From positions 1 to 64,000 of the forward strand of contig CAMZDG010000010.1 of NCBI GenBank assembly GCA_947305245.1: a stretch of 64,000 nt of DNA, in the 5' to 3' direction. Of this stretch, positions 680-26,755 are shown in pieces. The DNA comes from an uncultured Lachnospiraceae bacterium (GTDB taxonomy: Bacteria; Bacillota; Clostridia; Lachnospirales; Lachnospiraceae). Positions within the stretch are counted from its first letter, which is position 1, and every line of letters begins with the position of its first letter. The position numbers and the translations under genes were made by a program. The notes beneath the pieces were generated by a model, which ran no database searches, was not told where the DNA came from, and was given only the letters and a program-made list of their open reading frames with translations.

Positions 680-701
680 AGAGCGGGTGATGGGAATCGA
701 A
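680..701. other. Attachment site A, distal end of element 1
   Basis: This 22-bp stretch (key part GCGGGTGATGGGAATCGAA) is identical to the 3' end of the tRNA-Gly gene at 26684-26755 and to the core at 9550-9571. The sequence to the right is not tRNA. It is therefore a duplicated tRNA 3' end, as left by a tyrosine-recombinase element. It marks the outer end of the tandem array. Confidence 0.8.
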
Positions 702-778
702 GGTGGCAGTCAAATACCCAAAGTCCCAAGACCCCAGTAAAATCAACACTTTGAAAGGAGAAGGCAGCACTCTATTCT

Positions 779-804
779 TTAAGTCACGCAGAAAGTCACG
801 CAAT
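779..804. repeat. Putative integrase arm-type repeats, element 1 left end
   Basis: Two direct copies of AAGTCACGCA are spaced 12 bp apart, about 80 bp inside core A. The same motif recurs three times at 9478-9510, next to the integrase at the other end of element 1. Paired, end-specific repeats of this kind are typical arm-binding sites of tyrosine integrases; the binding itself is inferred. Confidence 0.6.
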
Positions 805-848
805 ACAAATCCTCTGGCAACAAAAACAACATAGCATTTGATTAATCT

Positions 849-1190
849 TTACTTCTCATTCATATACAGCGTCACCCTGTTCTGAATGACGTCAATTACC
901 TCATCGAGGCTCTTTTCTCCGGAGAAGTAGGTTCTTGCCTCCGCATAAGCAATTCTGTACAGCGGTAAATTGTCATCCGGAAGCGGCTCAAGGCCTTCCA
1001 GTAAAATCCTCAACGTCTTCAGATCCTCCTCCGTCATGTCAGGTTCTCCGCCATTAACGTTTTCCCGTCCCGCAAGGGCTATCCCAACCTTCTCCTCCAT
1101 CCTCTTTTGATCGGCGCATAGCTCAAGCTTGTCATATTCATCTTCTTTGTAAAGATACCATTCGATAATCAACTTAAGTCTACTCTTCAT
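849..1190 (-). pseudogene. C-terminal fragment of a solute-binding-type lipoprotein
   Basis: The 113 residues match only the tail of a large extracellular solute-binding protein. The last 20 or so residues (SLDEVIDVIQNRV) are nearly those ending the 645-residue protein at 12827-14764 (SLDDVIDVIQNRV). There is no signal peptide, no lipobox and no clear ribosome site before the ATG at 1190. It appears to be a 5'-deleted remnant lying just downstream of the anti-sigma gene. A small intact protein cannot be excluded. Confidence 0.6.
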
Positions 1191-1232
1191 CCGTTGGCTC
1201 TCTAGGCCATTCGCATTTCACATTATAACAAT

Positions 1233-2438
1233 CTAGTTTATTCGGCCGTCATAAATTGTCAGATTGGAAATACACTCATCCGGTATGGCCGGAACATAAT
1301 ACGCCCCATACATTTTCAGCCCTTCAGCCATCGTGTAATCGCTGGTATCAGGTAACTCTACGTAAAAACGATAGTACGGAAGGAAGGTTTCCGTCAAGGG
1401 ACCCGAAATATAAACCAGTTCAGTCTTTACAATATATTTCTTCCCTGGTACATTCTCTGAAACACTCGTCTGATACTGTCCATTAAGAAGTTTTTGCGTC
1501 GCTTCTTTCTCCGATATGATGGGGTAATCACCAATTTTCTCCGCATTCGTCAGCTCATCATAAACATCAATCATTGAAAGATTGCCGTCAAAATCTGGGG
1601 TAAACTTCGCATGACGGAAATGATAATTCAAAATCTTTTCTTCCTCTGCCGCCACGCAATCATACACCAAACATTCACGGAAGTATTCCCCGTCAGAATA
1701 ATACTCTCCGCCGAGGACGATCTGCGGATTGTCAAACGAAAGGAAAGAAGCAAATTCGCTGATAAGATACTTCATGGCATCTTCCGTTTCCTGATCCGTG
1801 GACTTTGTCCTGGTAAAATGATATTGTTCAGGGAGCTGACATCCCTTCAAAAAATGAATTCTGGTAAATCCGTTCGCTTCCACCGTCAGTCTCCACTCAT
1901 CCGTAGAAGCACAAATGCCATAAACGGCATCCTCCTCAGTGCCACTTTCAGCCACTTCCTCCTCATCGATGCGTTGCACTTCGATTTCAGCCTGTGTAAG
2001 ATCCAAGTCAAGCGACTTTGCCGCATCTTCAAGTCTCGTCTTTAAAGTGGCCTCATCAAAGCCAATCGGAATGCCTGCTCCGGAAGGATCATAACTGCCA
2101 TTCTTAAACACCGGCAGAGTCTTAAGTTTCATTTTCTTATTCCAGGGATTTCCGTTATCGAGTTCCTTGGCATCATAGCACATCTTTGCTTCAAATCCCA
2201 TGCCGCCCGTAATATATTCCGGCAGAGTTATTTTGGGAAGATCAGTCGCAGTAACGGGTGGCTCTGAAACTCTCTGTCGCAAGTTAACATATACCATGCC
2301 AATCAGCAGGCAAACGCATGCCGCAGCGGCAATCCATCCAAACCATGCATTTTTCTTTCTCGTAACTTTTTTTTCAGCATCCTGAATGTAAAAATCATTT
2401 ACTTCGCCGATGGCGTCCTGAAGTTTATCAGATTTCAT
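1233..2438 (-). CDS. Membrane-anchored putative anti-sigma factor
   Basis: 401 residues: a short cytoplasmic N-terminus (1-30), one membrane helix (about 31-53, Ala/Cys/Leu-rich) and a large extracytoplasmic domain of unknown fold. The gene overlaps the upstream ECF sigma gene by the four bases ATGA, so translation is coupled. Sigma and its one-pass membrane partner in this arrangement is the usual ECF sigma/anti-sigma layout. The sensor domain resembles no family I can name. It lies in element 1, so it is probably cargo. The function is inferred from layout, not from a recognised zinc-type anti-sigma motif. Confidence 0.65.
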   Translation of the reverse strand: MKSDKLQDAIGEVNDFYIQDAEKKVTRKKNAWFGWIAAAACVCLLIGMVYVNLRQRVSEPPVTATDLPKITLPEYITGGMGFEAKMCYDAKELDNGNPWNKKMKLKTLPVFKNGSYDPSGAGIPIGFDEATLKTRLEDAAKSLDLDLTQAEIEVQRIDEEEVAESGTEEDAVYGICASTDEWRLTVEANGFTRIHFLKGCQLPEQYHFTRTKSTDQETEDAMKYLISEFASFLSFDNPQIVLGGEYYSDGEYFRECLVYDCVAAEEEKILNYHFRHAKFTPDFDGNLSMIDVYDELTNAEKIGDYPIISEKEATQKLLNGQYQTSVSENVPGKKYIVKTELVYISGPLTETFLPYYRFYVELPDTSDYTMAEGLKMYGAYYVPAIPDECISNLTIYDGRIN

Positions 2439-2995
2439 ATAAAAACATCCTCCTTTTGAAGGCGCAGCAAAAGCTTGTCTCTCGTGCGCTTGAGCATCAT
2501 CTTTACTTTACTTTCACCAAAACCATATTTGGACGAGATCTCACTGATGCCGTCAAAGAACCAATATCGTCGCACAAAGACGCGCCGTTCATCCGTCGAT
2601 AATGTCTTTAGAAAATCATTTAGTATTTCTGTCAGTTCAGTTGCTTCTATCTTTTCATCAATGCTTTGTCCCGACGGTATGCAATCCTCTAACTCATCCA
2701 GAGAAAGCTGAGTGTTTCCTCCGCCCCTCTTATCCGCAGTTTTGCCTCGCCATTTTTTCAAAGACAGACGCCTGGTTATTTTTCCAAGAAACGTGGCCAG
2801 AATCTCAGGCTTGTGTGGTGGCATGGCATTCCACGCACCCAAAAACGTGTCATTCACGCATTCTTCGGAATCTTCATCATTTCGCAGGATGCCATTCGCT
2901 ATGGAAAAACAGTATCGTCCATATTTTCTTTCTGATTCGCTTATCGCCGACTCATCTCTTTGCCAGTATAGTTCCACTATCAGCTTATCTTCCAT
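2435..2995 (-). CDS. ECF-type RNA polymerase sigma factor
   Basis: 186 residues. Sigma region 2 covers about 8-75 with the hallmark Glu-Cys-Val-Asn-Asp-Thr-Phe and Trp-Asn-Ala-Met-Pro-Pro. Region 4 covers about 125-180 (DERRVFVRRYWF, then a helix-turn-helix ending LKRTRDKLLLRL). It directs RNA polymerase to a small regulon, probably released by the partner at 1233-2438. Two further sigma genes of the same type are at 12098 and 27944. A TGTGACCTTTT motif upstream may be its own promoter. Confidence 0.9.
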   Translation of the reverse strand: MEDKLIVELYWQRDESAISESERKYGRYCFSIANGILRNDEDSEECVNDTFLGAWNAMPPHKPEILATFLGKITRRLSLKKWRGKTADKRGGGNTQLSLDELEDCIPSGQSIDEKIEATELTEILNDFLKTLSTDERRVFVRRYWFFDGISEISSKYGFGESKVKMMLKRTRDKLLLRLQKEDVFI

Positions 2996-3043
2996 CAGTG
3001 CACCTCATTCTTAAGTATTCAAAGGCCTTTCATCCATCTACTA

Positions 3044-3066
3044 CCATTATAAATTAAAAAGGTCAC
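3044..3066 (-). promoter_or_regulatory. Possible ECF-type promoter upstream of sigma gene
   Basis: On the minus strand TGTGACCTTTTT is followed by TATAATGG. Similar TGTRAYYTTTT motifs precede the other two ECF sigma genes (12751-12758 and 28541-28550). The shared motif suggests autoregulation. The TATAAT could equally belong to a housekeeping promoter. Confidence 0.35.
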
Positions 3067-3317
3067 AAAAAAGTTAAAAATTTTAAATTTGCCCTTCTTG
3101 CGTTCTTCAATAGGCATGTTTTCTCCTTCTCAGGAGGATACCTATCCATTATACCATTGTCTGACTAACTTATGGATTTAACATTAAAACCATAAATTCG
3201 AATTTCAATTAAGTGCTTTTTAATAAATGTGTCCGTAGTTTTTGATTCTAAAAGGGACCCGCAATGGAGTCCCCCTCAAATGTTATCTTTCAACCCTGTT
3301 TCATAAATACCATGGCC

Positions 3318-3416
3318 ATCAACTTACCATCAACTTAAATTTCTCAAAAGAAGAGCGAATCTGCGGGTTTATTTCTTTTAGACAGGTCAATTTGTCAACT
3401 TACCGTCAACTTAAAT
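3318..3416. repeat. Two pairs of 12-bp-spaced direct repeats (arm-site-like)
   Basis: The blocks 3318-3340 and 3394-3416 each hold two copies of TCAACTTA about 12 bp apart. The two blocks match each other at nearly every base. The 12-bp spacing is that of the arm-like repeats at the element ends. The intergenic stretch 2996-3510 otherwise shows no gene. It may be an old element end buried in element 1. Confidence 0.5.
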
Positions 3417-3442
3417 CAAGCCCAATATGGTACATATTCCAA

Positions 3443-3509
3443 ATTGTTATCTTATCACAAGATCACGGTTTCTAGCAATAATCCCACAGCCGCATGGCAG
3501 ATTATTCCG
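3443..3509. repeat. Copy 1 of a dispersed 60-bp sequence (scar-like)
   Basis: The stretch contains TATCACAAGATCA and ATGGCAGATTATTCC and aligns along most of its length with 15493-15558. In this copy it lies directly after the stop of the sigma-70-like gene. The second copy has no such gene beside it. It probably marks the left backbone end of this element family. Confidence 0.5.
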
Positions 3510-3510
3510 G

Positions 3511-4173
3511 TCACACGATCTTCCCGTCGTTCATCATTTCCCGCAGCGTCCCCAGCGCTTCCTTTTCGATCTTTCTTAAGGTTCTCTCCGCGAGATGAAA
3601 GTACGCGGCAGTCTTGGAAATGGAGTTTGCCTTAAGCATTCCGAATCCGTAATGATACGCAAGAAGGCGCCTTTGTCTCTCCGGAAGGAGCCTTAGCCGG
3701 TTTTGCATTTTCTCCAGCATGACGTGAAGCACGGCCAGGTTTCCCGTCGGATCCTTCCACTGCACTTCGCCTCCCCGGCCGGAGTACGTCTTCTCCTCGG
3801 CATTCGGGTCACTTAGGAACACGCGCGTTAGTCCGTCTTCCTCCATCTGCCTCTCAAAGGTTGACTGCAACTTCCTGCAAAGCCTGTACATCGCCTTAAA
3901 GGCGGCCTTGTAAGCATAAGTGGAAAACTGCGCGCCCTTCTTTTTGTTGTATTTTTTTGCCGCAGTCAGCAGGGCGATCCGCCCCTCCTGCAGGAGGTCT
4001 TCCTCGTCGAATCCGTCCGAGGAATTCACCTTCTTCCATCTCTTCACCTTTTTGGCCAGTCCCGCGACCAGCCCCTCGTTTTCCATGAGGAGCAACGTCT
4101 CCGCCTCAAGGTCGTTTTCCTTCACCCTCCTGCACAGTTCCAGGTTTCTTTTGTATCTTTCTTCCTTCGTCAT
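3511..4173 (-). CDS. Sigma-70-family-like protein of element 1
   Basis: 220 residues counted from the ATG at 4173. Region-2-like helices cover about 55-105 (EEDLLQEGRIALLTAA and FSTYAYKAAFKAMYR). A region-4-like helix-turn-helix follows at about 160-215 (LPERQRRLLAYHYGF, then SKTAAYFHLAERTLRKI). It could switch element genes or act as a DNA-binding regulator. It lies directly after the XRE gene, so the two form one operon. An ATG 12 bases upstream (4185) overlaps the XRE gene but lacks a ribosome site, whereas GGAAG precedes the chosen start. Sigma activity is inferred. Confidence 0.7.
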   Translation of the reverse strand: MTKEERYKRNLELCRRVKENDLEAETLLLMENEGLVAGLAKKVKRWKKVNSSDGFDEEDLLQEGRIALLTAAKKYNKKKGAQFSTYAYKAAFKAMYRLCRKLQSTFERQMEEDGLTRVFLSDPNAEEKTYSGRGGEVQWKDPTGNLAVLHVMLEKMQNRLRLLPERQRRLLAYHYGFGMLKANSISKTAAYFHLAERTLRKIEKEALGTLREMMNDGKIV

Positions 4174-4175
4174 TT

Positions 4176-5015
4176 TCACTTCCATAAGTCAAACAGCGCC
4201 GGCATGATCACCTCAACTGCCTCGTCCAGCTTTTCCCCGTATTCGTCATACACGTCGGGATTTTCCCTCAGGCCAGCCTTAACCGATTCGATCACGTTGC
4301 GTTTTCTTTGCTCAAACGGCAGCGCCAGGGGATCCCCACGCCTTTCAATTTCAGCCCTGACCGCATTAAGAATTTCCGAGGTAAACTTTCCCTTGGCGTA
4401 TTCGCGAACCTCGCTTCCCGTCTCCTTCCTGATCTCGTCCACGGCGTCCATGAAATACTTCCGGATGTTGTTCAGTTCCATCGGTTCTGCCTTTGCCCTT
4501 TTCGCCTTAATCTGCGCGCGAAGTGCGTTCGTCTCACTGTTTTTGGGGATCCGTCCCCGGTTGATGAATTCCGTCGCGAGGTTGTACGAAAAATCGTAAA
4601 CGCTGTTGCCCGTGGCAAAGGCGATCACGGCGATCTCGCTGAAATACATTGCCATGAGTCTCGTCGCCTCGAGAAAGTTTTCGTTTCTTAGAAGCGCGTC
4701 CACCACTTCCTGATTTGCGTTTTTCGTCAGCAGGCTTGCCGCGGCCTCCACGGAAAGTCCCAGCGCCTTCAGGTCGTAATACGTCTTCTGCGGCACGTCC
4801 GAAATCCCGAGCAGGTAGTCCGACGAAACGTCGTAAAGGTTCGCCAGGCCCGTCAGCACGTCGCTGTTAACGGTTCTGGTCGTTCCGTTCTCCATCCTTC
4901 CGTAGGACGCCTTGTCTATTCCCAAAATCCCGGCAACCTTTGCCTGCGAATAATCCCTTGCCTCGCGCAGTTCCCTCATTCTCTGCTGAAGCGTTCCCTG
5001 CAAATATTCTCCCAT
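4176..5015 (-). CDS. XRE-family repressor of element 1
   Basis: 279 residues. An N-terminal Cro/C1 helix-turn-helix spans about 12-70 (YSQAKVAGILGIDKASYGRME, ending DYLLGISD) and a long helical C-terminal part follows. There is no peptidase domain, so it is not a LexA/CI-type self-cleaving repressor. It is transcribed divergently from the mobilization operon at 5394. The related gene in element 2 (21222-22034) has the same place and domain plan. It probably holds element transfer and excision genes silent. Confidence 0.8.
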   Translation of the reverse strand: MGEYLQGTLQQRMRELREARDYSQAKVAGILGIDKASYGRMENGTTRTVNSDVLTGLANLYDVSSDYLLGISDVPQKTYYDLKALGLSVEAAASLLTKNANQEVVDALLRNENFLEATRLMAMYFSEIAVIAFATGNSVYDFSYNLATEFINRGRIPKNSETNALRAQIKAKRAKAEPMELNNIRKYFMDAVDEIRKETGSEVREYAKGKFTSEILNAVRAEIERRGDPLALPFEQRKRNVIESVKAGLRENPDVYDEYGEKLDEAVEVIMPALFDLWK

Positions 5016-5046
5016 GCGTTTTCTTCATTTTCCTTTCTTTGTAACC

Positions 5047-5060
5047 CAAACATATGTTCT
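5047..5060. promoter_or_regulatory. LexA/SOS-box-like palindrome before the element 1 repressor
   Basis: On the minus strand this reads AGAACATATGTTTG, close to the Gram-positive SOS box CGAACATATGTTCG. It lies 9 bases downstream of the putative -10, between promoter and gene. Element 2 has a matching site (22059-22072) in the same position. It could instead be the operator of the XRE protein. Confidence 0.5.
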
Positions 5061-5069
5061 GTTATTACC

Positions 5070-5098
5070 ATATCACGTTCGTTGCGATTTTGCATCAA
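5070..5098 (-). promoter_or_regulatory. Putative promoter of the XRE/sigma-like operon
   Basis: On the minus strand TTGATG and TGATAT are separated by 17 bp. The -10 is a weak match. The placement parallels the stronger TTGACG-17-TATATT promoter of element 2, which is the main support. Confidence 0.4.
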
Positions 5099-5213
5099 AA
5101 ACTTTAAAAAAATTTTTTTGCGATACTCAAAAATGTGATTTCGCCTTTTTTCGGGCCATTTGGGATTCCCCGCCGTATCATTACTTTAGAAGCGTTTCGA
5201 ACAAGCTCTTTTT

Positions 5214-5245
5214 CCCTTGTTTGACAAGGGCGCACGTCTATACCC
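5214..5245. other. Candidate origin of transfer (oriT) of element 1
   Basis: A 7-bp inverted repeat (CCCTTGT ttg ACAAGGG) runs straight into GGGCGCACGT. Read on the minus strand this is ACGTGCGCCCTTG, close to the nick core AAGTGCGCCCT known for MobQ-type plasmids. A MobQ-type relaxase gene lies 470 bp away. The rest of the 5016-5393 gap holds the promoter, this site and a terminator. The hairpin is on the 3' side of the core, unlike RSF1010, so the call is tentative. Confidence 0.35.
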
Positions 5246-5325
5246 TCCCGGGCATTCCGCGCGTTTTTCCCGCCTGCCCCTCGCTGCGGGAAAGAAAAAA
5301 CTGCGTTCGCTTCGCTTCCGGACGA

Positions 5326-5357
5326 AAGGACCAGGGCACAGCCTCAGGTCCTTTTTT
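5326..5357 (+). terminator. Intrinsic terminator just before the mobilization operon
   Basis: The stem AAGGACC/GGTCCTT is followed by a T-run. It lies only about 40 bases before the start at 5394, so it may attenuate or insulate the operon rather than end a gene. A hairpin with a T-run also precedes the relaxase of element 2. Confidence 0.6.
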
Positions 5358-5393
5358 ATTTCCAAAATCTAAAGGAAAAAGGAGGAAAAACGA

Positions 5394-5711
5394 ATGAAGG
5401 ATTTGGAAAAAAACCTTGAAGAGGCGCGGGCCGACCTTGAGCGGGCCGTGCGGGAAAAGGAAGTCCTTGAGCGCAGGGTTACGCGCAAGGAAAACCGGCT
5501 TCGCAACGCGCTGAGGAAAAAGGATTCCGCCAGGACGCACAGGCTCATCGTCGAGGGAGCTGAGCTTGAGTACGTGTTTGACGGAATCGAAAACCTGCCC
5601 CAGGAAGTCTTCTGGGCGTTCATGAGAAGGCTCGTCCTCGTGCCGGGCGTGAGGGAACTTTTTGAGCTGGCAAGGACGGAAGGCCTTCCCGCGGAAGGGG
5701 GTGATGACTGA
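5394..5711 (+). CDS. DUF3847-type small mobilization accessory protein
   Basis: 105 residues. Residues 1-45 are a charged coiled coil (ERRVTRKENRLRNALRKKD), followed by the conserved Arg-Thr-His-Arg-Leu-Ile-Val-Glu-Gly-Ala-Glu-Leu segment of the DUF3847/MobC-like family. These small proteins sit directly before relaxase genes in Firmicute IMEs and are thought to help at oriT; that role is inferred. The stop codon overlaps the relaxase start by one base (TGATG). An AAAGGAGG ribosome site is present. Confidence 0.7.
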   Translation: MKDLEKNLEEARADLERAVREKEVLERRVTRKENRLRNALRKKDSARTHRLIVEGAELEYVFDGIENLPQEVFWAFMRRLVLVPGVRELFELARTEGLPAEGGDD

Positions 5712-7207
5712 TGGCCCTTTATCATTTCGAGGTGACGCAGATTTCCAGGGGCCGGGGACAAACCGCCGTGGCAAGCGCGGCGTACCGCGCGGGGGAAAGG
5801 CTTCACGACTCGTACTATGACGAGGATCCCGACTACCGAAGGAAAGGGGGCGTCCTGCATTCCGAGGTCATTCTCCCGGCGCACGCGCCGCGCAGGCTTT
5901 CGGACAGGGAGACGCTTTGGAACGAGGTCGAGTCCGCTGAAAAACACCCCAGGGCGCAACTGGCGTATTCCTTCGACGTCGCGTTTCAAAACGAACTGTC
6001 CTTTGAGGAAAACCTCGCGCTTGCAAGACGGTTCATTGCGGAAAACTTCACCGCGCGGGGGATGATCGCCGACCTTGCGTGTCACGATCCCCACAAGGAC
6101 GACGATATTAAAAATCCCCACTTTCACGTGCTCTGCCCGATCCGCCCCCTTAATCCGGACGGAACCTGGGGAATGAAGCAGCGCCGCGAATACGCGCTTG
6201 ACGAAAACGGCGAGCGCGTGCGGGACCGGAACGGGAAGCTTGTTTACAACGCGGTCGCAACGACCGACTGGGGCGCTCCCGAGACGCTTCTTGCCTGGAG
6301 GGAAAACTGGGCGCGCCTCGTCAACGAGGCCTTTGAGAAAAAGGGAATTGCGGAACGCGTGGATCACCGCTCCTACGAGAACCGGGGCATCGACCTCATC
6401 CCGACCGTTCACGAAGGACCCGCCGTCCGCGCCATGGAGTCGAGGGGAATCCGCACGGACGTCGGCGACTGGAACCGGCTGATCAAAAAGGCAAACGCCC
6501 TCCTTCATTCCCTAAAGGGCAGCGTGAAGGCACTGGCAGACTGGATCTCCGAACTGAGAAAACGCATCGCGGAGCTTAAGGAAGACGAACGGCTGGCTCG
6601 ACTGGAATCGCAGACGCTTGCCTCCGTCCTGTGCGGGTATTACGAAAGGAGAAACGCCGGGGCTTACTCCAACAAGGCCAGGGTAAACAACCTGAAGCAG
6701 CAGGCAAGGGCAATCGACTTCCTGCACGCAAACGGCATCTCATCCCTTGGCGACCTGGACAAAAAAGTGAAGGCAACGTATTCCGAAGTTTCCAGGGCCT
6801 GCGCCGAAGTCAGGGAACTGGACGACGAGGTTTCATTGATTAAAAAAACCTTGAGCCTCACGGAAAAGCTGGCAAAAGGGAAGCCGGTTTACGACGCGCT
6901 GCGAGGGATCAGGCGCAAGTCAGAATCGGACGCCTTTAAGGAACTGCACCGCGCCGAGCTGACCTCGTTTTACGCGGCAAGGCGCGAACTGGGGGAGATT
7001 TATCCAAACGGAATCCCGGACGAAACCGAGCTGCGGAAACGGCTGGCCTCCCTGAGTGAAAAACGGCAGCCCCTGTATTCCGCTTACAAAAAACTGAAGG
7101 AAGAAGCCGGCGCGGCATACGCCATAAAAAAGGCAATACAGGCTGATTACGAAAAGGCGATGCGCGAACGCGGCGAAGACAAACTTAGAAAAGGAGAAGA
7201 AAGATAA
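5711..7207 (+). CDS. MobA/MobL (MobQ-type) relaxase
   Basis: 498 residues. The N-terminal relaxase domain covers about 1-245: a likely catalytic Tyr25 in SAAYRAGERL and the metal-binding His137-x-His139 in NPHFHVLCPI, both typical of MobA/MobL. It would nick oriT and carry the strand during mobilization. The C-terminal part (about 260-498) is helical and highly charged. It is translationally coupled to the DUF3847 gene before it and abuts the replication gene after it. No type IV secretion or coupling protein is present, so transfer would need a helper. Confidence 0.88.
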   Translation: MALYHFEVTQISRGRGQTAVASAAYRAGERLHDSYYDEDPDYRRKGGVLHSEVILPAHAPRRLSDRETLWNEVESAEKHPRAQLAYSFDVAFQNELSFEENLALARRFIAENFTARGMIADLACHDPHKDDDIKNPHFHVLCPIRPLNPDGTWGMKQRREYALDENGERVRDRNGKLVYNAVATTDWGAPETLLAWRENWARLVNEAFEKKGIAERVDHRSYENRGIDLIPTVHEGPAVRAMESRGIRTDVGDWNRLIKKANALLHSLKGSVKALADWISELRKRIAELKEDERLARLESQTLASVLCGYYERRNAGAYSNKARVNNLKQQARAIDFLHANGISSLGDLDKKVKATYSEVSRACAEVRELDDEVSLIKKTLSLTEKLAKGKPVYDALRGIRRKSESDAFKELHRAELTSFYAARRELGEIYPNGIPDETELRKRLASLSEKRQPLYSAYKKLKEEAGAAYAIKKAIQADYEKAMRERGEDKLRKGEER

Positions 7208-8032: not shown

Positions 8033-8054
8033 ACATGAATAACCCGTCACTCGT

Positions 8055-8084: not shown

Positions 8085-8091
8085 ATGTCAA

Positions 8092-19344: not shown

Positions 19345-19353
19345 GCATTATAC

Positions 19354-19501: not shown

Positions 19502-19530
19502 AAGCCCTGAAACGCATTCGTTTCAAGGCT
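19502..19530. terminator. Hairpin beside the family 3 core (copy 2)
   Basis: It is almost the same hairpin as 15574-15601 (AAGCCCTGAAACG...CGTTTCAAGGCTT). It is part of a repeated block of about 150 bp. Confidence 0.65.
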
Positions 19531-19549
19531 TTTCTCATGAATATAACAG

Positions 19550-19571
19550 TGCTGGCAGCCGGACTTGAAGG
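19550..19571. other. tRNA 3'-end-like core, copy 2 (degenerate att)
   Basis: It matches 15622-15643 exactly over 22 bp. No tRNA body follows on the right. Together the two copies delimit a 3.9-kb block holding the AraC, XRE-TPR and ATPase genes. The gap 19345-19865 otherwise holds only these repeats. Confidence 0.6.
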
Positions 19572-19589
19572 AAAAACTTGCTTAAAAAA

Positions 19590-19650
19590 ACAATAAAATA
19601 AGGAGGTTTGAGGAACCGACATTCCTTGGAATACCTATTTGCATACCTTT
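19590..19650. repeat. Arm-like repeats right of family 3 core (copy 2)
   Basis: It shares AACAATAAAATAAGGAGGTT with 15661-15680. TACCTATTTGCATACCT, with TACCT recurring at 12 bp, lies at about 19633-19649. The spacing equals that of the other element ends. Confidence 0.5.
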
Positions 19651-19865
19651 TTACTCTCTATATTTCTGCTATCCTGGTTATTTCTTTATACCTTTTCGAT
19701 TCACCCATATGCCTATATGATTTTACTGTTAAAAACTAAGTGTCGCCATATTATGACATCACACCGACAGTATTCCAACTGGCCCGGGTTAGGCATGCAT
19801 TTTCATAAATGGTCCATAAACGGGCATGGACCCCTTGTGATGGGAACCCCAATAACCCACTGATA

Positions 19866-20522
19866 TCATTCTGCCCCGTCAGTATTTCCATGTTTCAGTA
19901 AGGCACTTATCACGAAACATACTAGTGCAATGACAAAAACTGCCACCAATGACATTATGAGGGATACCGGCTCAAACGTCAGCCAAGTGGTATTCCTGGG
20001 TACGGGATCTCCCACCTTCGTCATGGGATACACACGATTCAAAAGAAGACCAAATCCGCTTTTTCCACTGTAATCTCCGCCCCACTGCGTAATTCCCAAT
20101 GGTATGTCCTTGCTTATAAGATAACCAAGAAGGTTTATAAGAAAGCCAGTGCCGCTTACAATACAGGAGACAATGGCTGCCTTTCTTAGAATCCTTTTTC
20201 GATCAGAGATCTTGAGAATGGCTGCGGTCAAAAGCATGGATGCCGCGGACAAGATAAGGTAAATGACAGTCAAAACGGCAATTGATTCAAAGTCCAAGAA
20301 CCGTTTCATACCAAGGATGAATACATCGCCCACAAAAAACAGGGCAAGGGAAACAACCGGCAAATACCAGTGTTTCCTTAGACTTTTTCCGACGGATATT
20401 CCCAAAATCACGAAGAATACCGGAATGATCACGACCAGCAGAATGTTACGGGCATTATGAGAATGTCTAATGCCCGAACTGATGATCAGTGGAAGGATCA
20501 ATAACACCATCGTTGCCGTCAT
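19866..20522 (-). CDS. Multi-pass membrane protein of unknown function
   Basis: 218 residues with about six hydrophobic helices (near 5-20, 28-45, 55-72, 80-105, 118-138, 185-210) and a hydrophilic loop of about 40 residues before the last. I do not recognise a family. It lies downstream of a lipoprotein gene on the same strand, 64 bp apart, so both may form an envelope-related operon. Confidence 0.6.
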   Translation of the reverse strand: MTATMVLLILPLIISSGIRHSHNARNILLVVIIPVFFVILGISVGKSLRKHWYLPVVSLALFFVGDVFILGMKRFLDFESIAVLTVIYLILSAASMLLTAAILKISDRKRILRKAAIVSCIVSGTGFLINLLGYLISKDIPLGITQWGGDYSGKSGFGLLLNRVYPMTKVGDPVPRNTTWLTFEPVSLIMSLVAVFVIALVCFVISALLKHGNTDGAE

Positions 20523-20586
20523 GAGCCAGAAAACCGTTTATTTCATTGTCGCGCCCTCCCTTATCACATAAAACGCAAATCATCGA

Positions 20587-21018
20587 TCAAGACTGATAGG
20601 AAATTACCATCTCCACGCCTGCATCCATGGAAAGCGTGTTCAGATTGAGTGTTTCGCCGCAGCGTATTTTAATTGTTTTAGGCGGATCCTGCAACAGACT
20701 GATGTTTCCATCCTTGTCCGGCACGCCAAACCCCGTGTTTTCCAGCACGAGTTCCTTATCAGTAATCGATGCTATGCTAAGCTTCCCCATGGTTCCATCA
20801 TACAGAATGTCACCCACCTTGGGTTCACTCATTTCTTTCGTATCCGCATTTCTGTACATGCCTCCCGTTCCGTCTTCCCGGACACCGACACTCCAGATTG
20901 TGGTGACCACCTGAATCTTACCCTTTTCTTCCTGCCGTGCTTCAATCCTTTTTCCGCAACCGCAGAAGGCAGCACATGAAATAATGATTGCCATGATTAT
21001 CGTTAATGCTTTTCTCAT
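20587..21018 (-). CDS. Small lipoprotein of unknown function
   Basis: 143 residues from the ATG at 21018, which has AAGGAG 8 bases upstream; a start nine codons earlier lacks one. The signal peptide ends in lipobox Phe-Cys-Gly-Cys21. The mature part is short and beta-rich. It probably works with the membrane protein encoded next. No family recognised. Confidence 0.65.
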   Translation of the reverse strand: MRKALTIIMAIIISCAAFCGCGKRIEARQEEKGKIQVVTTIWSVGVREDGTGGMYRNADTKEMSEPKVGDILYDGTMGKLSIASITDKELVLENTGFGVPDKDGNISLLQDPPKTIKIRCGETLNLNTLSMDAGVEMVISYQS

Positions 21019-21164
21019 CCTTTTCGCTCCTTTTTTCTGAATCAATCGTTATACAGGTTTGCCTGTCGTTCTAAACATAAGGACGCTTTTCGTCGGATAA
21101 AGTTTCAATGTGGCATTATATTTTCTTATAATCCAATCGTAACCGTATCATTACAAATCAGTAT

Positions 21165-21200
21165 CTGAAACTTCGCAGTTATAAAACTGCGAAGTTTCAG
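21165..21200. terminator. Strong hairpin after the element 2 repressor gene
   Basis: A perfect 16-bp inverted repeat (CTGAAACTTCGCAGTT and its complement) with a 4-base loop, 20 bp after the repressor stop. It lacks a good T-run on the minus strand, so it may act as a bidirectional barrier between backbone and cargo. Confidence 0.6.
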
Positions 21201-21221
21201 TAAATAATAATATTTCTATGG

Positions 21222-22034
21222 TTACCGCTTTCCTCTTCCCTTTTTCGGCAGCATACCTTTATATACATTGGAATACTTCTCGACAATTCCGGTAAAGAAC
21301 TGGATCTCCGCAGGATCCATTTTGTTAAAGTTCATTCCCAGCTGTCTGCTCAAGGTGGACAACGTTGCCTTCATCGGATCAGTCGCGGTTGCATACTCCT
21401 GCACAATGTCAATGACCTCGGTGAGCGGATTATTGTCTTCGCCGGTCTCTTTGTCTTTTTTATGGTTTTCCCGGATGTCTTTTGCGATGTTTGTGATGTC
21501 AGTTCCGATCAGTCTGCTGAAATAATCGTCCTCTTCTATCTCGGATGCCTTGAGCGTCCGAACGTAATGTTCGGTCTCCGGGGCCTCATTTTTGAGTTGG
21601 ATTTTAGTCCGCATCATGGCAACGTAACCGTTCAGGTTATTGATCTGCATTGAGGCCAGACTGTCGATATATATTTCCGTGTCACTCATGAATTTCCAGA
21701 AATCCGGATGCTTAATGATCTCACAAAGAAGTCTGTTATTTATCTTTCCGCTTTTCAGGATCTCTACGGTTTCATCATCCAGTTTCAGTTCCCTTACCGA
21801 AGTTTTTGCTTGCGTTTTGTTGTCCGTCACTCCCATGAGGTACTCCACGCTGACGCCATAATAATTTGCCAGTTCGATGATTACCCGGTAGGGAATGTCT
21901 TTGTAATCGTTGCTCTCGTAACTGCCAAGCGCCGACTTGGAAAGACCCGTTTCCCGTGCCAGCTCTTCTAACCTTAAGCCTCTTTCATTTCGCAAATCTT
22001 TCAGTTTTTCCTGTAACGTCAATTCACATTTCAT
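21222..22034 (-). CDS. XRE-family repressor of element 2
   Basis: 270 residues. The Cro/C1 helix-turn-helix covers about 8-68 (LRLEELARETGLSKSALGSYE, ending EYLMGVTDNK), followed by a helical C-terminal part without a peptidase domain. It is the positional counterpart of the element 1 repressor, with distant similarity. It has a good promoter (22080-22108) with an SOS-box-like palindrome at the start site. It probably represses the divergent mobilization genes. Unlike element 1, no sigma-like gene follows. Confidence 0.8.
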   Translation of the reverse strand: MKCELTLQEKLKDLRNERGLRLEELARETGLSKSALGSYESNDYKDIPYRVIIELANYYGVSVEYLMGVTDNKTQAKTSVRELKLDDETVEILKSGKINNRLLCEIIKHPDFWKFMSDTEIYIDSLASMQINNLNGYVAMMRTKIQLKNEAPETEHYVRTLKASEIEEDDYFSRLIGTDITNIAKDIRENHKKDKETGEDNNPLTEVIDIVQEYATATDPMKATLSTLSRQLGMNFNKMDPAEIQFFTGIVEKYSNVYKGMLPKKGRGKR

Positions 22035-22058
22035 TGTTTTTCACCCCTGAAACAGTTT

Positions 22059-22072
22059 CGAACATTTGTTCT
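22059..22072. promoter_or_regulatory. LexA/SOS-box-like palindrome before the element 2 repressor
   Basis: CGAACATTTGTTCT resembles the Gram-positive SOS box CGAACATATGTTCG. It lies 7 bases downstream of the -10 element of the repressor promoter. The site before the element 1 repressor has the same layout. It could alternatively be the operator of the XRE protein. Confidence 0.5.
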
Positions 22073-22079
22073 TTTTATA

Positions 22080-22108
22080 AATATACCGCCTTACAGGTTC
22101 CGCGTCAA
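22080..22108 (-). promoter_or_regulatory. Promoter of the element 2 repressor gene
   Basis: The minus strand shows TTGACG, 17 bp, TATATT, both close to consensus at ideal spacing, about 45 bases before the ATG. Confidence 0.65.
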
Positions 22109-22302
22109 GGAAGGAATTCCGAAAGCGCGGATTTTTTTTATTTTCGTTAAAAAATCCTGCCTTTCGGACATACGGGACGAGGTCCTTCCAAACGATAAAC
22201 TTGACTTGGAACAAAAGATAATCGGTTCGAAGGAGCCCGGAGTTTCCCGCAAGCGCGGACGTCGCCGTAACAAAAAAAAGTTAATTTAACGTGGAGGAAA
22301 AA

Positions 22303-22449
22303 ATGAAGAACAGGGAAAGGCAAAGACAAAACAGAAAGCGAAAGGAGGAGATGCTAAACGTCAGGAACGAATACGGTAACTGCGATCCCACTCCGTATGA
22401 AGCAGTCAAAAACATCATTCTGGAAAACAAAAGAAAGAGAAGGAGGTGA
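22303..22449 (+). CDS. Small basic protein of the element 2 mobilization region
   Basis: 48 residues. An Arg/Lys-rich N-terminus (NRERQRQNRKRKEE) is followed by EYGNCDPTPYEAVKNIIL and an Arg-rich tail. A GTGGAGG ribosome site lies 5 bases before the ATG. The DPTPYEAVKNI segment looks conserved rather than random. Basic charge and place before the relaxase suggest a DNA-binding accessory or an excisionase-like protein; this is inference. It occupies the place of the DUF3847 gene of element 1. Confidence 0.6.
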   Translation: MKNRERQRQNRKRKEEMLNVRNEYGNCDPTPYEAVKNIILENKRKRRR

Positions 22450-22472
22450 ACAAAATGACCAAAGGAAAAGAT

Positions 22473-22499
22473 CATCCCCCGGGAGGGGATGCTTTTTTC
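22473..22499 (+). terminator. Terminator between the small ORF and the relaxase
   Basis: The hairpin CATCCCC/GGGGATG with a five-base loop is followed within two bases by six T. It starts 24 bases after the small gene. A tiny ORF (ATG at 22455, good ribosome site) reads through it, so it may act as an attenuator. Confidence 0.7.
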
Positions 22500-22745
22500 T
22501 TTTGGCGGGGCGAAGTGCAGGGGGCGCAACTCCCTGCCGGATCGTGAAGGCGGCGCCTTACGCAAGGTGCAGGAGCAAGGCTCCGCCAGGGTGCAGGGAG
22601 GGTCCCGCTCAGGTCCAGGGTGAAACCTTGGGCGGGTCCGGGGAGGCATCCCGGTCTGGTCAAGGACGAAGTGCCTTGTGGGGTGCAGGGGCAACGCCAC
22701 GCTCGGGTCCGGGTCGAAATCCCGGGCAGGTCCAGGGCGCGGCCA
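22500..22745. repeat. GC-rich region of imperfect short repeats
   Basis: About 245 bp, much richer in G than its surroundings, with four copies of GTGCAGG and four of GGTCC(A/G)GG at irregular spacing. Frames exist on both strands, but their composition is repetitive and no ribosome site fits. It may be a structured leader RNA or part of the oriT region. It fills most of the gap between 22450 and 22872. Confidence 0.5.
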
Positions 22746-22748
22746 TGG

Positions 22749-22784
22749 CCCAATGAAGTGTTGCCCGCGACACTTTGTATTGGG
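22749..22784. other. Inverted repeat before the relaxase, possible oriT of element 2
   Basis: CCCAATgaAGTGT...ACACTttgtATTGGG forms an interrupted stem around a GC-rich loop. Hairpins of this size near a relaxase gene are typical of oriT regions. I see no known MobV nick sequence, so this stays tentative. Confidence 0.3.
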
Positions 22785-22872
22785 TTATCATCCGTCGCGC
22801 TTCGCTTAAGACGGAACGGCTTCGCCGCAAATTCGGAAAAACAAATTTTCAGAAAAGGGAGAAAAAAAAGAA

Positions 22873-24183
22873 ATGAGCAAAAGAAGGGCAACAAGACACA
22901 ACGGCAGAAAGGGGAAGAACGGAATCTTTAAGGCCGGGCACAACGACAGAAGCTTTAACGTTGAAAACGCGGAACACGTGGACGAAAACAGGTGCTTCAT
23001 GAACGTTTACTGGGACTGTTACCAGGGACTTAACGTTGCGGACGCGGACGGCGTCCGACCGAAGCGAAAACACAATTTTGACGAAATCGAGCGGGCTTAT
23101 TATTTTGAAAAATTTTCAGATTCCGTTGACGCGCAAAACGAGCGACACGAAAAATCCAGGCACAGGGAACGGATTCGAAAACTTGACGACGTGCTGACGG
23201 ACCCAAGGACCTGTCCGGAGGAATCCGTCTATCAGCTTGGCACTAAGGACGGCTATGAAGACCCCGCCCTGTTTGTTCAGGTGGTGACGGAACTGTTCGA
23301 AGAAATGGAAAAACGCTACGGTTCAAATTTTAAAATTCTCGACTGGGCCCTGCACATGGACGAGGCCACGCCGCACGTTCACGAACGGCACGTCTTTTTC
23401 GCCGACGACGGTTACGGCTCGTTTTTTCCCAAGCAGGAAAAGGCATGTGAAGCGTTAGGATTCTCACTGCCTGATCCGGAGAAAAAGCCGGGAATGAAGA
23501 ACAGCCGCAAGATGAGTTTTGACGCCGAGGTAAGAAACGTTTTTATCTCCATTGCGGAAAAGCACGGCGTGACCGTTGAAAGGATTCCCCTTGACGGAAA
23601 GGTCCATTTGGAGAAAAACGATTTCATTTTGGCCAGACAGGAAGAAGAGATCCGGCAAAAACGGGGCGTGCTTTCCGAGATGGACGAGTTCCTGTCGTCC
23701 AAACGCAATGAGAGTGAAAAACTGCGGAAGGAACTCGACGAACTCACCCTGAAGACTTCCGACCTTGACGGCCTGGTAAACGAAGTGACGGACGCGGCTT
23801 ACGAAAAAGCCGTCGAACTCGTTACCGACGCGGTCAAAACCGAAACCGTAAGGGCAAACGTTGCCCTCATCGAAAAGTATGACGGCGAAATCCAAAAAAA
23901 CGAAACCGACTGCACGCAGGACCAAAGGCGTTTTGCGTCCCGCCTTCTCTCAGGCCTTACGGATTACCTGAAGGAAAAGACCTGCGACCTTACCGCACTG
24001 CTTAAAAAAGTCCTGCATGATCCCGACGTCAAAAAAAGGCATCAGAACGAAATCGCCAAGGCAGCCAGGGCGTCAATCCTGGAGCGGCTTGCCCGGGGAC
24101 GAAGGGAAGCCGCCCGGAGAAATGCCGAACGGCAACAGGAGAATCGCCAGCGTCACAACAAAAAAGAAAACGAAAGGAGCTAA
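22873..24183 (+). CDS. MobV-type (Pre/Mob-like) relaxase
   Basis: 436 residues. The diagnostic motif HMDEATPHVH at 161-170 matches the HxDExxPHxH metal-binding motif of the Pre/Mob relaxases. The N-terminus is basic (SKRRATRHNGRKGKNG) and the C-terminal half (about 245-436) is a long charged coiled coil. It should nick the element for mobilization with a helper conjugation system. This is a different relaxase class from the one in element 1, although the downstream genes correspond. It lies 6 bp before the replication gene. Confidence 0.82.
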   Translation: MSKRRATRHNGRKGKNGIFKAGHNDRSFNVENAEHVDENRCFMNVYWDCYQGLNVADADGVRPKRKHNFDEIERAYYFEKFSDSVDAQNERHEKSRHRERIRKLDDVLTDPRTCPEESVYQLGTKDGYEDPALFVQVVTELFEEMEKRYGSNFKILDWALHMDEATPHVHERHVFFADDGYGSFFPKQEKACEALGFSLPDPEKKPGMKNSRKMSFDAEVRNVFISIAEKHGVTVERIPLDGKVHLEKNDFILARQEEEIRQKRGVLSEMDEFLSSKRNESEKLRKELDELTLKTSDLDGLVNEVTDAAYEKAVELVTDAVKTETVRANVALIEKYDGEIQKNETDCTQDQRRFASRLLSGLTDYLKEKTCDLTALLKKVLHDPDVKKRHQNEIAKAARASILERLARGRREAARRNAERQQENRQRHNKKENERS

Positions 24184-24189
24184 TTACAC

Positions 24190-25020
24190 ATGGCAAAAAG
24201 AAGAATGATCTCAACGGACGTGGTAAGCACGGATGCCTTTTTGGGCATGTCGCTGCGAGCCAGGGAATTATACCTGCACATCAACTTAGAGGCTGACGAT
24301 GACGGCTTCATCCCGTCGGCACTAAAAGTAACCCGAATGGTCGGAGCGTCAAAGAAGCACCTTAGCGAACTCGTGGACAAGGGATACCTGATCGCGTTTG
24401 AAGGCGGGCTTCACCTCGTGACGCACTGGCTTTTGAACAACCAGATCAGAAAGGCCCGTTACGTTCCCACCATTTACCAAAAGGAAAAGGCCCTCGTCAC
24501 GACGAAAGGCAAGGTTTACCGGCTTCTCACGGAAGAGGAACTGGCCAAAAAAGCCGCCGAAGAAGAACAACAAAATGGCGTCCATTTGGACGCCAACACG
24601 GACGCCGTTTCGGATCCAAACGGCGCCCAGACGGATGACGCTTTGGACGCCCAGGTAAGTAAAGGTAAGGACAGTACAGAAAAGGAAAGATTAGACAAAA
24701 ACAGACAAGATGAGGGAGATACTAAGAAAACCCCTCCCCCTCTCATCATTCCTTCCGTAAAGGAATTAACTGAATATGCCGAACAAATCGGCTATCAGGA
24801 CTTCAATCCCGAAAAGTTCCTTACCTACTACGGATCCCGAAACTGGACGCTCTCCGGAGGGATGCCCGTAACGGACTGGAGAATGCAGGTGGACAGTTGG
24901 AAGGCGAGGGAGGGCGATTTTAAGCCTGCGGCTTTGTCTCCAAAGCAACCCGCCTGGAAGCCCGCGAACCAAAACGATTACGACTTTGAAGAGCTGGAGA
25001 AAAAGCTCATTGCAAACTGA
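24190..25020 (+). CDS. Replication-initiator/replisome-organiser-like protein
   Basis: 276 residues. The N-terminal winged-helix-like domain (RARELYLHINLEADDDGF, VGASKKHLSEL) matches the element 1 protein at moderate identity. Residues about 120-185 differ, and the last 95 (EYAEQIGYQDFNPEKFLTYY onward) are almost identical. The near identity continues into the terminators downstream. A recent exchange between the two elements, or strong constraint, is implied. It probably supports replication of the excised element. Confidence 0.7.
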   Translation: MAKRRMISTDVVSTDAFLGMSLRARELYLHINLEADDDGFIPSALKVTRMVGASKKHLSELVDKGYLIAFEGGLHLVTHWLLNNQIRKARYVPTIYQKEKALVTTKGKVYRLLTEEELAKKAAEEEQQNGVHLDANTDAVSDPNGAQTDDALDAQVSKGKDSTEKERLDKNRQDEGDTKKTPPPLIIPSVKELTEYAEQIGYQDFNPEKFLTYYGSRNWTLSGGMPVTDWRMQVDSWKAREGDFKPAALSPKQPAWKPANQNDYDFEELEKKLIAN

Positions 25021-25042
25021 ACATGAATAACCCGTCACTCGT

Positions 25043-25073
25043 CCTTTTGCCACGCCCGGCAGGGGATTTTTTT
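25043..25073 (+). terminator. Terminator 1 after the element 2 replication gene
   Basis: The hairpin CCTTTTGCC/GGCAGGGG with a T-run is nearly identical to 8055-8084. Confidence 0.65.
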
Positions 25074-25081
25074 ATGTCAAG

Positions 25082-25117
25082 GGGCAGTCCTGCGCATTGC
25101 AGGCTGCTCTTTTTTTA
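25082..25117 (+). terminator. Terminator 2 before the element 2 integrase
   Basis: The hairpin GCAGTCCTGC/GCAGGCTGC with seven T is nearly identical to 8092-8127, and lies 22 bases before the integrase start. Confidence 0.75.
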
Positions 25118-25138
25118 TTCACAGCGGAGGAACATTTA

Positions 25139-26554
25139 ATGAATTCAGAAATATCCATGTTACAGAGAATTCGCATGACGGACGCGGCAATCCGGGACTT
25201 GCATAACGGAAACAGTGATGTTATGCTTAGAATTGCCGATGCTGCATTAGAAACAAAAATGCAGAAAAGAAAAATAAAAGAATTTGAACTAAAGGAGGAC
25301 GCAGTAAAAAAGGTTCACGTAACCGGTACGGGAATGCCGCGAAGCATCAGCGAAAAACAGGATGAAAGCGGAAAAACCTACTACTTGACCAAAGTAAAGG
25401 GCAAAAAGCAGATTTGCTCCTATTCTTACGAGAGTTTGATTGAAAAGCTTTATGAATACTATAAAGCCGAGATCCTGCCTCCCGAAGAATGCGGACGCAC
25501 CCTGGCAGCTGTTTTCCCCAGGGCACTTAATGCCTACAAGGTATCCAAAAACCCGTCATACAACACGCTCTACAAGTATGAAAAGGATTTTAAGAGATTT
25601 TTGGCGGAATCAAGCCTGGCCAAAAAAGAAGTTTGCGACGTTACGGCTTTTGACATTCAGGTCTTCACGCAGGAAATGGTTCGCAGGCAAAGTCCAAAAA
25701 TCAAGGCATTCCGCGGGTACATCAGCCTGCTCAACCTGATCTTTAAGCACGCCCGTGATCCCGAAAAGCTCATCACAAACAATCCCGTGGATCTGATTGA
25801 CTTCAGTCCATACTTAAAGTCCTGTGATCAGTCAAGGCCAAAATCCAAGGATAAAATCCTTTCGCCTGAGGAGATTGACCAAATTCGGAATGTCTGTTTT
25901 AAGCGTATTACCAGCAAGCCTTACTACGTGCGTGGCTACATGATGCTTCTGGCCATTGAGTCGGGCATGCGCGCCGGAGAGCTCTGCTCACTGAAGTGGA
26001 ATGACGTAAAGTGGGAAAACCGTCCTACGGATCCGTTTGACAGGCCGTGTCTTCACATCCACTCCCAGCAGCTGAGCAACTACGGGACAGACGGGCGGCT
26101 GTATTACACCTATGTCGGATGGACTAAGGATGAAAAGGGCATCAGCAAGGGCGGCCGATATTTTCCGCTAACGCAAAAAATCCATTCCATTCTTACCGCC
26201 CTGCGGAAAAAACAGGAAGAGCTTGGAATTTATGATCCTAACGGGTACATATTTCTCGAGGACGGGAAATGGGTAACGACGGTCTCGTACGAAAAATGCC
26301 TTAAACGGGTTTGTGATTCCCTGGGTTTCGAAATCAGCAACAACCACGCATTTCGAATGAGCCTTAACTCAAACGTGTTTATTCCCCTTGGAATACCGGT
26401 AACCACCAGGGCTCTCTGGCTTGGACATTCCGTGGAAGTAAACCTGAAACATTACAGTTACGCGGAAAAAAAGACAATGGGAGAATACGGACAGAGATTG
26501 GATGCGGCCGAAATAAGCCAAAAAGACAGGTTTGCCGAAAGGCTTTACGCTTAG
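25139..26554 (+). CDS. Tyrosine recombinase (integrase) of element 2
   Basis: 471 residues from the ATG at 25139, preceded by GGAGG; an upstream in-frame start lies inside the terminator. Catalytic residues are Arg278 (ESGMRAGEL), His403-x-x-Arg406 (HAFR), His430 (LGH) and nucleophile Tyr439 (KHYSY). It is clearly diverged from the element 1 integrase, although both use the same tRNA-Gly site, and it has different arm-like repeats. The stop is about 130 bp from the tRNA core, the usual position for an element inserted at a tRNA 3' end. Confidence 0.92.
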   Translation: MNSEISMLQRIRMTDAAIRDLHNGNSDVMLRIADAALETKMQKRKIKEFELKEDAVKKVHVTGTGMPRSISEKQDESGKTYYLTKVKGKKQICSYSYESLIEKLYEYYKAEILPPEECGRTLAAVFPRALNAYKVSKNPSYNTLYKYEKDFKRFLAESSLAKKEVCDVTAFDIQVFTQEMVRRQSPKIKAFRGYISLLNLIFKHARDPEKLITNNPVDLIDFSPYLKSCDQSRPKSKDKILSPEEIDQIRNVCFKRITSKPYYVRGYMMLLAIESGMRAGELCSLKWNDVKWENRPTDPFDRPCLHIHSQQLSNYGTDGRLYYTYVGWTKDEKGISKGGRYFPLTQKIHSILTALRKKQEELGIYDPNGYIFLEDGKWVTTVSYEKCLKRVCDSLGFEISNNHAFRMSLNSNVFIPLGIPVTTRALWLGHSVEVNLKHYSYAEKKTMGEYGQRLDAAEISQKDRFAERLYA

Positions 26555-26574
26555 GTTTTTGCCCAAAAACATCG

Positions 26575-26608
26575 AGGTCAACCCCTGGGTCAACCCCAGG
26601 TCAACCCC
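26575..26608. repeat. Putative integrase arm-type repeats, element 2 right end
   Basis: Three tandem copies of GGTCAACCCC at 12-bp and 11-bp steps lie between the integrase stop and the tRNA hairpin. They match 9630-9654 at the other end of element 2. Confidence 0.65.
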
Positions 26609-26639
26609 AAAAAGCCGTCTAAAAAATGAACAAAAAAAA

Positions 26640-26669
26640 GCGAGAACCCTTTATTTACAAGGGTTCTCG
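26640..26669 (-). terminator. Terminator of the tRNA-Gly gene
   Basis: The hairpin CGAGAACCCT...AGGGTTCTCG lies 14 bases beyond the tRNA 3' end. It can also end integrase transcription from the other side. It corresponds to the hairpins beside cores A and B. Confidence 0.7.
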
Positions 26670-26683
26670 AAGCAAAAAAATAG

Positions 26684-26755
26684 AGCGGGTGATGGGAATC
26701 GAACCCACGTGTCCAGCTTGGAAGGCTGGCGTACTAACCATTGTACTACACCCGC
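26684..26755 (-). tRNA. tRNA-Gly (anticodon TCC)
   Basis: 72 nt. The acceptor stem GCGGGTG pairs with CACCCGC, the anticodon arm CCAGC-CTTCCAA-GCTGG gives anticodon TCC, and the T-arm contains GGTTCGATTCC. The discriminator is T and CCA is not encoded. It is intact and has a consensus promoter, so it should be functional. Its 3' end is the integration target of both upstream elements. Confidence 0.96.

Follow-up and report, generated by a model that had tools for sequence, protein, structure and literature searches.

Two putative mobilizable elements in tandem on one tRNA-Gly(UCC) gene of a Lachnospiraceae bacterium, the tRNA-proximal one likely retargeted from tRNA-Leu(UAA)

We analyzed the first 64 kb (the window) of a 95.9-kb contig (CAMZDG010000010.1, which begins at window base 1) from an uncultured Lachnospiraceae bacterium whose assembly comprises 77 contigs and 3.34 Mb. 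Two predicted integrative mobilizable elements (IMEs) are found in tandem on one tRNA-Gly(UCC) gene, each with its own family of terminal repeats. The one nearer the tRNA probably derives from a tRNA-Leu(UAA) element whose target changed when its integration block, the integrase together with the attachment (att) ends, was exchanged. We put the probability of this reading at about 0.75. Element 1 (702..9550, + strand) carries a MobQ relaxase and the tyrosine integrase Int1, and element 2 (9572..26682, + strand) is chimeric and carries a MobV-like relaxase and Int2. Both were delimited by domains and end repeats, together with the relaxase profile for element 1 and island matches for element 2. 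Tandem IMEs and integration-module exchange are already known; the interleaved scars of two tRNA targets are the unusual part.

The 21-nt core at the 3' end of the tRNA-Gly(UCC) gene, GAGCGGGTGATGGGAATCGAA, is found in exact copies at 681-701, 9551-9571 and 26683-26703, all on the + strand. The three cores in one orientation had been described in an earlier note on this DNA (as 22 nt, since an A precedes all three copies) and were recovered here. The mean copy number in 100 shuffles was 0.00, and a fourth copy is absent from the 3.34-Mb assembly with up to one mismatch allowed. ARAGORN found a single tRNA in the window, a complete tRNA-Gly(TCC) gene at 26683..26755 (minus strand); the third core forms the 3' end of this gene. 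The copy at 681..701 is the outer one and that at 9551..9571 marks the element 1/element 2 junction (both + strand, exact matches). Int1 (8151..9464, + strand, 437 aa; PF00589, E 4.7e-17) and Int2 (25097..26554, + strand, 485 aa; PF00589, E 2.5e-10) carry the Phage_integrase domain and point towards the core, which follows after 86 and 128 bp, respectively (distances include the stop codon). Each interval is thus closed by a tyrosine integrase gene and then a core, and the two enzymes share 22% identity over 261 aa, in agreement with the claim that different integrases use one site.

Each interval is also bounded by a private repeat family. AGTCACGC is present in four copies in the 64 kb (782, 794, 9479 and 9500, + strand), which form direct repeats at the left (782..801) and right (9479..9507) ends of element 1. 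GGTCAACCCC is present in five copies (9632, 9644, 26576, 26588 and 26599, + strand) at both ends of element 2, the last three forming the right-end direct repeats (26576..26608). No further exact copy of either was found in the window, and every copy lies within 110 bp of a core, on its own element's side. The number of GGTCAACCCC copies is well over chance (shuffle mean 0.09). We infer that the end repeats are arm-type integrase sites. The shared core and the private family around each interval support the stacking of two elements on one tRNA-Gly gene that the earlier note proposed. As a count of elements, two holds for the stack and is an undercount for the locus, in view of an older decayed layer (268-680) and the composite nature of element 2 with its Leu cores.

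Evidence for retargeting comes from within element 2, where the 20-nt 3' end of tRNA-Leu(TAA) is present in two exact copies (15622..15641 and 19550..19569, + strand), each preceded by a hairpin; the mean expected by chance with up to three mismatches is 0.01. In the following, G000 denotes the source genome and other G numbers denote genomes of the same genus, C a contig and L a fetched locus. The flank of the first copy (14953-15692) is 96.5% identical to a tRNA-Leu island of G155, and 19462-19569, which includes the second copy, is 90.7% identical to an element end at tRNA-Leu in G018. The segment between the two cores (15642..19549) carries AraC-type, HTH-TPR and ATPase genes by domain assignment, with no integrase seen. 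A stretch of it (15750-16761) is 93.6% identical to a G018 Leu island. At 75% identity or higher, Leu islands account for 2223 of the 3908 nt of the segment and Gly arrays for 108; the comparison sets were similar in size (216 kb and 249 kb). The segment 15622-19569 has att cores at both ends and neither integrase nor relaxase, and is by sequence a candidate cis-mobilizable element (CIME).

The left end of element 2 is a fusion. The first part (9572..9694, + strand), which contains GGTCAACCCC at 9632 and 9644, is of the Gly type and 97.6% identical over 124 nt to a Gly left end of G171. The second part (9695..9803, + strand) is a Leu-type left end joined from its position 38, with 98.2% identity over 109 nt to G018 and 100% over 46 nt to G178. 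A 13-nt left-end motif, scored with up to three mismatches, is found at offset 37-38 in 11 of 11 Leu left ends examined (two of them from this window) and at offset 124 in the left end of element 2.

At the other end of the integration block, the two elements share a joint which consists of the 3' end of a dnaD-like gene and the following intergenic stretch (7739..8127 and 24727..25116, both + strand; 90% identity over 300 nt and 97% over 71 nt). Sliding identity drops to 13-28% past 8155. The DnaD-like gene and joint of element 2 (24190-25119) are 90% identical to a tRNA-Leu element of G150, and the similarity declines near the integrase start. Mirror cases were found in sister genomes. The backbone of element 1 (3510-8164) is 92% identical to G150:C17, an element at tRNA-Leu, and diverges at the integrase start, where a different integrase follows. 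G046 carries one backbone in two copies, which are 85% identical until close to the integrase; on C3 the integrase is of the Int2 type and lies at tRNA-Gly, and on C2 it is a tRNA-Leu integrase. The integrase block of G046:C3 is 90.5% identical to that of G155:C136, and the relaxases of these two differ (MobQ and MobV-like).

In an integrase tree of 26 rows, from which fragments, duplicates and two other matches (L011 and L055) were omitted, Int1 groups with a tRNA-Pro integrase (97/94) and Int2 falls in a separate 13-row clade (96/98); four rows, Int1 included, were flagged as long branches. Targeting of tRNA-Gly(TCC) requires six changes on this tree, at least four of them forced by well-supported branches. 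Gly cores of G018, G171 and G147 have Int1-type 3' ends next to them, more such remnants occur in G150 and G155, and Int2-type integrases adjoin tRNA-Gly in G046 and G155. Segmental duplication of one element was considered and rejected: the two intervals share only the core, the dnaD-like gene with the joint, and short fragments, and their relaxases have no real similarity.

We examined the same site in a genus sample of 138 genomes, the source genome included. The Gly core (up to one mismatch) is present in 87 genomes, 12 of which carry at least two copies on one contig. After identical contexts were merged and two listed places (G052 and G009) left out, there were 126 distinct core contexts, of which 100 lie in a tRNA-Gly gene and 26 outside one (one of the 26 is a tRNA copy cut by the locus end). 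An integrase-like open reading frame (ORF) lies within 600 bp in 12 of the 86 tRNA copies whose distal sequence extends for 1300 bp or more, and 11 of these 12 ORFs are at least 1 kb long. In the stacks of G037, G175 and G183 a full-length integrase adjoins the tRNA. Ten sister segments are bounded by cores (one each in G147 and G150, two each in G018, G011, G171 and G178). None of the ten contains an intact tyrosine integrase gene, and a pattern search found a matching repeat family at both ends in one; both segments of the window have an integrase and matched ends. A neighbouring M56 gene (E 1e-150 or better) was found in 8 of the 138 genomes, the source genome among them, and is linked to an occupied site in G000, G011, G150, G171 and G178. 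Sister genomes show the same site with different array contents, so the 26 kb is not one fixed unit, an outcome in keeping with the stacking proposed in the earlier note.

Elements and stacks at tRNA-Leu(TAA) also occur in sister genomes, with five exact cores in G150:C17, five in G018:C56 and three in G178:C10. The Gly arrays of G011 and G171 contain tRNA-Leu cores preceded by Int3-type integrase remnants, the tRNA-Leu island of G150 contains a Gly-type core with one mismatch, and both cores are found on one contig in G147 and G085 as well. A core split after GATGGG by a short GC-rich hairpin unit was seen in L047 (17769-17908), L050 (18773-18916) and at the L158/L046 boundary in G150:C9. The repeat distance is 139 bp in L047 and 143 bp in L050, which resembles the gene-free microCIMEs (130-220 bp) reported for S. 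salivarius (PMC7563491).

Several observations weigh against this reading of the locus or limit it. The count of AGTCACGC is not rare (shuffle mean 1.40; 6 of 100 shuffles reach four copies), and it is therefore the placement of this repeat that carries weight. Over the whole of element 2, at the same identity threshold, 4742 of 17111 nt match Leu islands and 3560 match Gly arrays, and 21201-23628 is closest to a Gly island of G155; the body of element 2 is mixed and mostly unmatched. Two of the other 11 Gly left ends have the 13-nt motif as well, at offset 37. The layout is therefore common to both kinds of left end, and it is the long matches that support the fusion. The likeness of the two joints could reflect functional constraint. 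No exact tRNA-Leu core was found elsewhere in the assembly, and its own tRNA-Leu(TAA) gene was not located. Among the eight genomes with the M56 flank there is no empty site with the same flank (the contigs of G018, G080 and G155 end before the tRNA). No circular form was seen, and the activity of the elements and their order of entry are therefore putative. Finally, no integrase remnant was found before the Leu cores of the window.

This last point also fits a simpler account, in which two unrelated IMEs accreted and a Leu-type element inserted into element 2 in ordinary nested ("matryoshka") fashion, bringing the Leu cores. No more is needed to explain the tandem structure, and nested elements are known (PMC7563491). 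However, Leu-island-like sequence flanks both Leu cores on both sides, the window has no tRNA-Leu gene, and the Gly/Leu fusion at 9695 lies in the terminal left end of element 2 itself, 5.9 kb before the first Leu core. We consider the simpler account improbable.

The order of insertion is also open to a second explanation. That element 1 came first is inferred from the tRNA-proximal position of element 2 and from the decayed layer farthest out. If element 2 had come first and element 1 had later entered at the distal core of element 2, the final sequence would be identical, and PMC5357655 describes elements that insert into the attL or attR site of a resident one. At the distal core, however, the remainder of the tRNA side of the site is missing. 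Moreover, the layer with the strongest decay (268-680) is the outermost one, and in streptococcal stacks, too, this layer lies farthest from the target gene (PMC7563491). The reverse order is on this evidence an unlikely one.

It is less likely still that 681-26703 was acquired and moves as a single composite. The outer cores are intact, and transfer of a whole composite has been reported (PMC5704250). A parallel is IME_Sag2603_tRNALys with a decayed integrative and conjugative element (ICE) in S. agalactiae (PMC7563491; PMC5704250), which likewise occupies a tRNA 3' end with integrases less than 30% identical and very different att sites. That composite was reported to excise whole (PMC7563491), whereas here the left outer end carries the type 1 repeat family and the right outer end type 2, and parts of each element occur separately in sister genomes. 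Excision is predicted only: elements 1 and 2 may excise singly and the composite rarely, and because of the tRNA-Lys case we make no firm prediction. Mis-joining of contigs at the core repeats is very unlikely in spite of the 77-contig assembly and the position of the window at a contig end, since the junction 9262-9695 (element 1/core/element 2) recurs at 96% identity in G171, which was assembled independently, a stretch that spans core 681 (645-1120) recurs at 92% in G018, and the repeats match end to end.

Under the preferred reading, tandem IMEs with a retargeted element 2, the following course can be proposed. Element 1 would enter first, and element 2 would then insert at the tRNA-proximal att site; this insertion would restore the 3' end of the tRNA and supply the terminator hairpin that element 2 carries. 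Int1 and Int2 would each bind their own repeats as arm-type sites and cut within the common core. In a circle of element 2 the Gly-derived stretch (approximately 25120-26682, the core and 9572-9694; ~1.7 kb) would be contiguous, and a single block exchange could change the target and leave the Leu cores inside as scars. Homologous exchange at the dnaD-int joint is plausible because the two joints of the stack run in the same direction and are 90-97% identical.

We further propose, at roughly even odds, that the tRNA-Gly(UCC) and tRNA-Leu(UAA) islands of the genus form one linked exchange system. Mobilizable backbones would move from one site to the other through the swap of an int-attP block that is in one piece only in the circle, with the dnaD-int joint as one crossover. 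The swaps would leave abandoned cores behind, and past retargeting could then be read from the interleaving of Gly and Leu cores. Int1 and Int2 would keep the core and differ in arm repeats, and members of the Int2 clade may keep similar arm repeats and change the core. GGTCGACCC is found at the corresponding place in the Int2-type right ends of G046 and G155, and GGTCGACC at the tRNA-Leu integrase end in G150. The pattern GGTC[AG]AC[CT] is present in two of four right ends with a full-length integrase at tRNA-Leu(TAA) (G150 and G046 yes, G011 and G018 no), which lowers the probability we assign to the linked system.

Comparable arrangements are known from streptococci. In PMC5357655 and PMC7563491 (the latter for S. 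salivarius), IME1-IME2 tandems at rpsI, rpmG and rplL have two tyrosine-integrase IMEs per site, decayed elements on the distal side and module exchange. Tandem IMEs at one site there have tyrosine integrases 21-69% identical (PMC5357655), and integration modules were exchanged between IMEs, probably through accretion (PMC5357655, PMC5704250). In contrast, the target here is the tRNA-Gly(UCC) gene of a Lachnospiraceae genus, with the attachment cores of a second tRNA gene inside one of the elements. CIMEs and microCIMEs resemble 15622-19569 and the ten core-bounded sister segments in being integrase-less and bounded by att cores; unlike them, 15622-19569 is bounded by Leu cores inside a Gly element. 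A literature search on rumen Lachnospiraceae IMEs at tRNA genes, integrase swaps in islands and Butyrivibrio ICE tandems, which covered mostly papers available without subscription, found nothing matching. A change of target is usually inferred from comparison of whole modules. Here the joins may be read to the base: the Gly/Leu fusion 124 nt inside the left end, the foreign cores in the body and the integrase boundary at the shared joint. Together with the mirror cases in sister species, they make target-site switching directly testable. The arrangement also suggests how one core may serve two integrases that distinguish their own ends by arm repeats.

The gene content of both elements looks like that of IMEs. 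PF00589 is found in both integrases, and direct repeats of the target gene form the boundaries of both elements. The MobQ-type relaxase of element 1 (5711..7207, + strand) is above both cut-offs (MobA_MobL, E 5.6e-84; NCBIfam MobQ, 252.5 bits against 200). It is followed by a DnaD-like helicase-loader gene (7208..8032, + strand; PHROG 8489, E 2.8e-40), and a terminator-like hairpin (9516..9544, + strand, read from the sequence) precedes the core at the right end. Element 1 also carries regulator and extracytoplasmic function (ECF) sigma genes. A single search for a plasmid copy of its dnaD-int region gave no match. A 113-aa ORF at 849-1190 is apparently what remains, at the 3' end, of a lipoprotein gene of the solute-binding type; array segments of G018 (L060) and G171 (L159) contain longer relatives.

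The relaxase of element 2 (22873..24183, + strand) scores below the MobV cut-offs (Pfam Mob_Pre, 25.4 against 25.5 bits; NCBIfam MobV, 16.4 against 100 bits), and we therefore name it MobV-like only. Its stretch HMDEATPHVH fits an HxDExxPHxH-type motif, which we take to be the MobV relaxase motif. A search for relatives with solved structures gave four matches (best E 0.28), no relaxase among them. Downstream are a DnaD-like gene (24190..25020, + strand; PHROG 8489, E 1.8e-43), Int2 and, before the tRNA end, a terminator-like hairpin inside the element (26641..26669, + strand, also by inspection). Upstream of the TTG start of Int2, the reading frame continues without a stop into the joint (25031-25119), and the true start codon is uncertain. 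In addition to the AraC-type, HTH-TPR and ATPase genes, element 2 carries an ECF sigma gene.

No type IV transfer domain was found among 30 ORFs scanned with Pfam (27 in the elements and three in the right flank). Transfer would need a helper conjugation system in trans. Two genes for coupling proteins of type IV secretion systems (T4SS) are present elsewhere in the genome (C3 and C20), which makes a conjugation helper possible. The region G000:C20:26716-48685 has a T4SS coupling-protein gene and, ~17 kb further, three consecutive tyrosine recombinase genes; it is a possible resident conjugative helper.

Outside element 1, 268..680 is probably the decayed remnant of an older element. Homologous sequence adjoins orphan Gly cores in G150:C17 and G155:C66. 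The layer consists of a sigma-gene fragment (267-361), 62-bp repeats (approximately 316-613) and a hairpin (649-674). Neither the AGTCACGC nor the GGTCAACCCC family is present upstream of core 681. The 62-bp tandem repeats (316-613) have short inverted arms (AGAAGGGACAA / TTGTCCCTTTT) and are also found beside the Gly core in L078. The assignment of 1-680 to plain chromosome was rejected for 268-680 on account of the orphan-core homologs and kept as likely for 1-267. The latter (1..267) is probably distal chromosomal flank with the start of a lipoprotein gene (minus strand). It is 94% identical over 267 nt to G150:C9, where the match lies inside and just upstream of a PrcB_C-domain gene with ABC-transporter and two-component genes nearby. 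On the tRNA side, the conserved chromosomal flank (26844..31774, minus strand) encodes a DUF4179 protein, an ECF sigma factor and an M56 peptidase; homologs of at least one of these genes lie beside tRNA-Gly in G011, G150, G171, G178 and G046. ECF sigma factors are encoded in both cargos and in the chromosomal flank (2435-4185, 12098-12655 and 27944-28498). M56- or sigma-like genes recur across sister arrays, perhaps by repeated capture of sigma/sensor pairs at the tRNA-Gly site.

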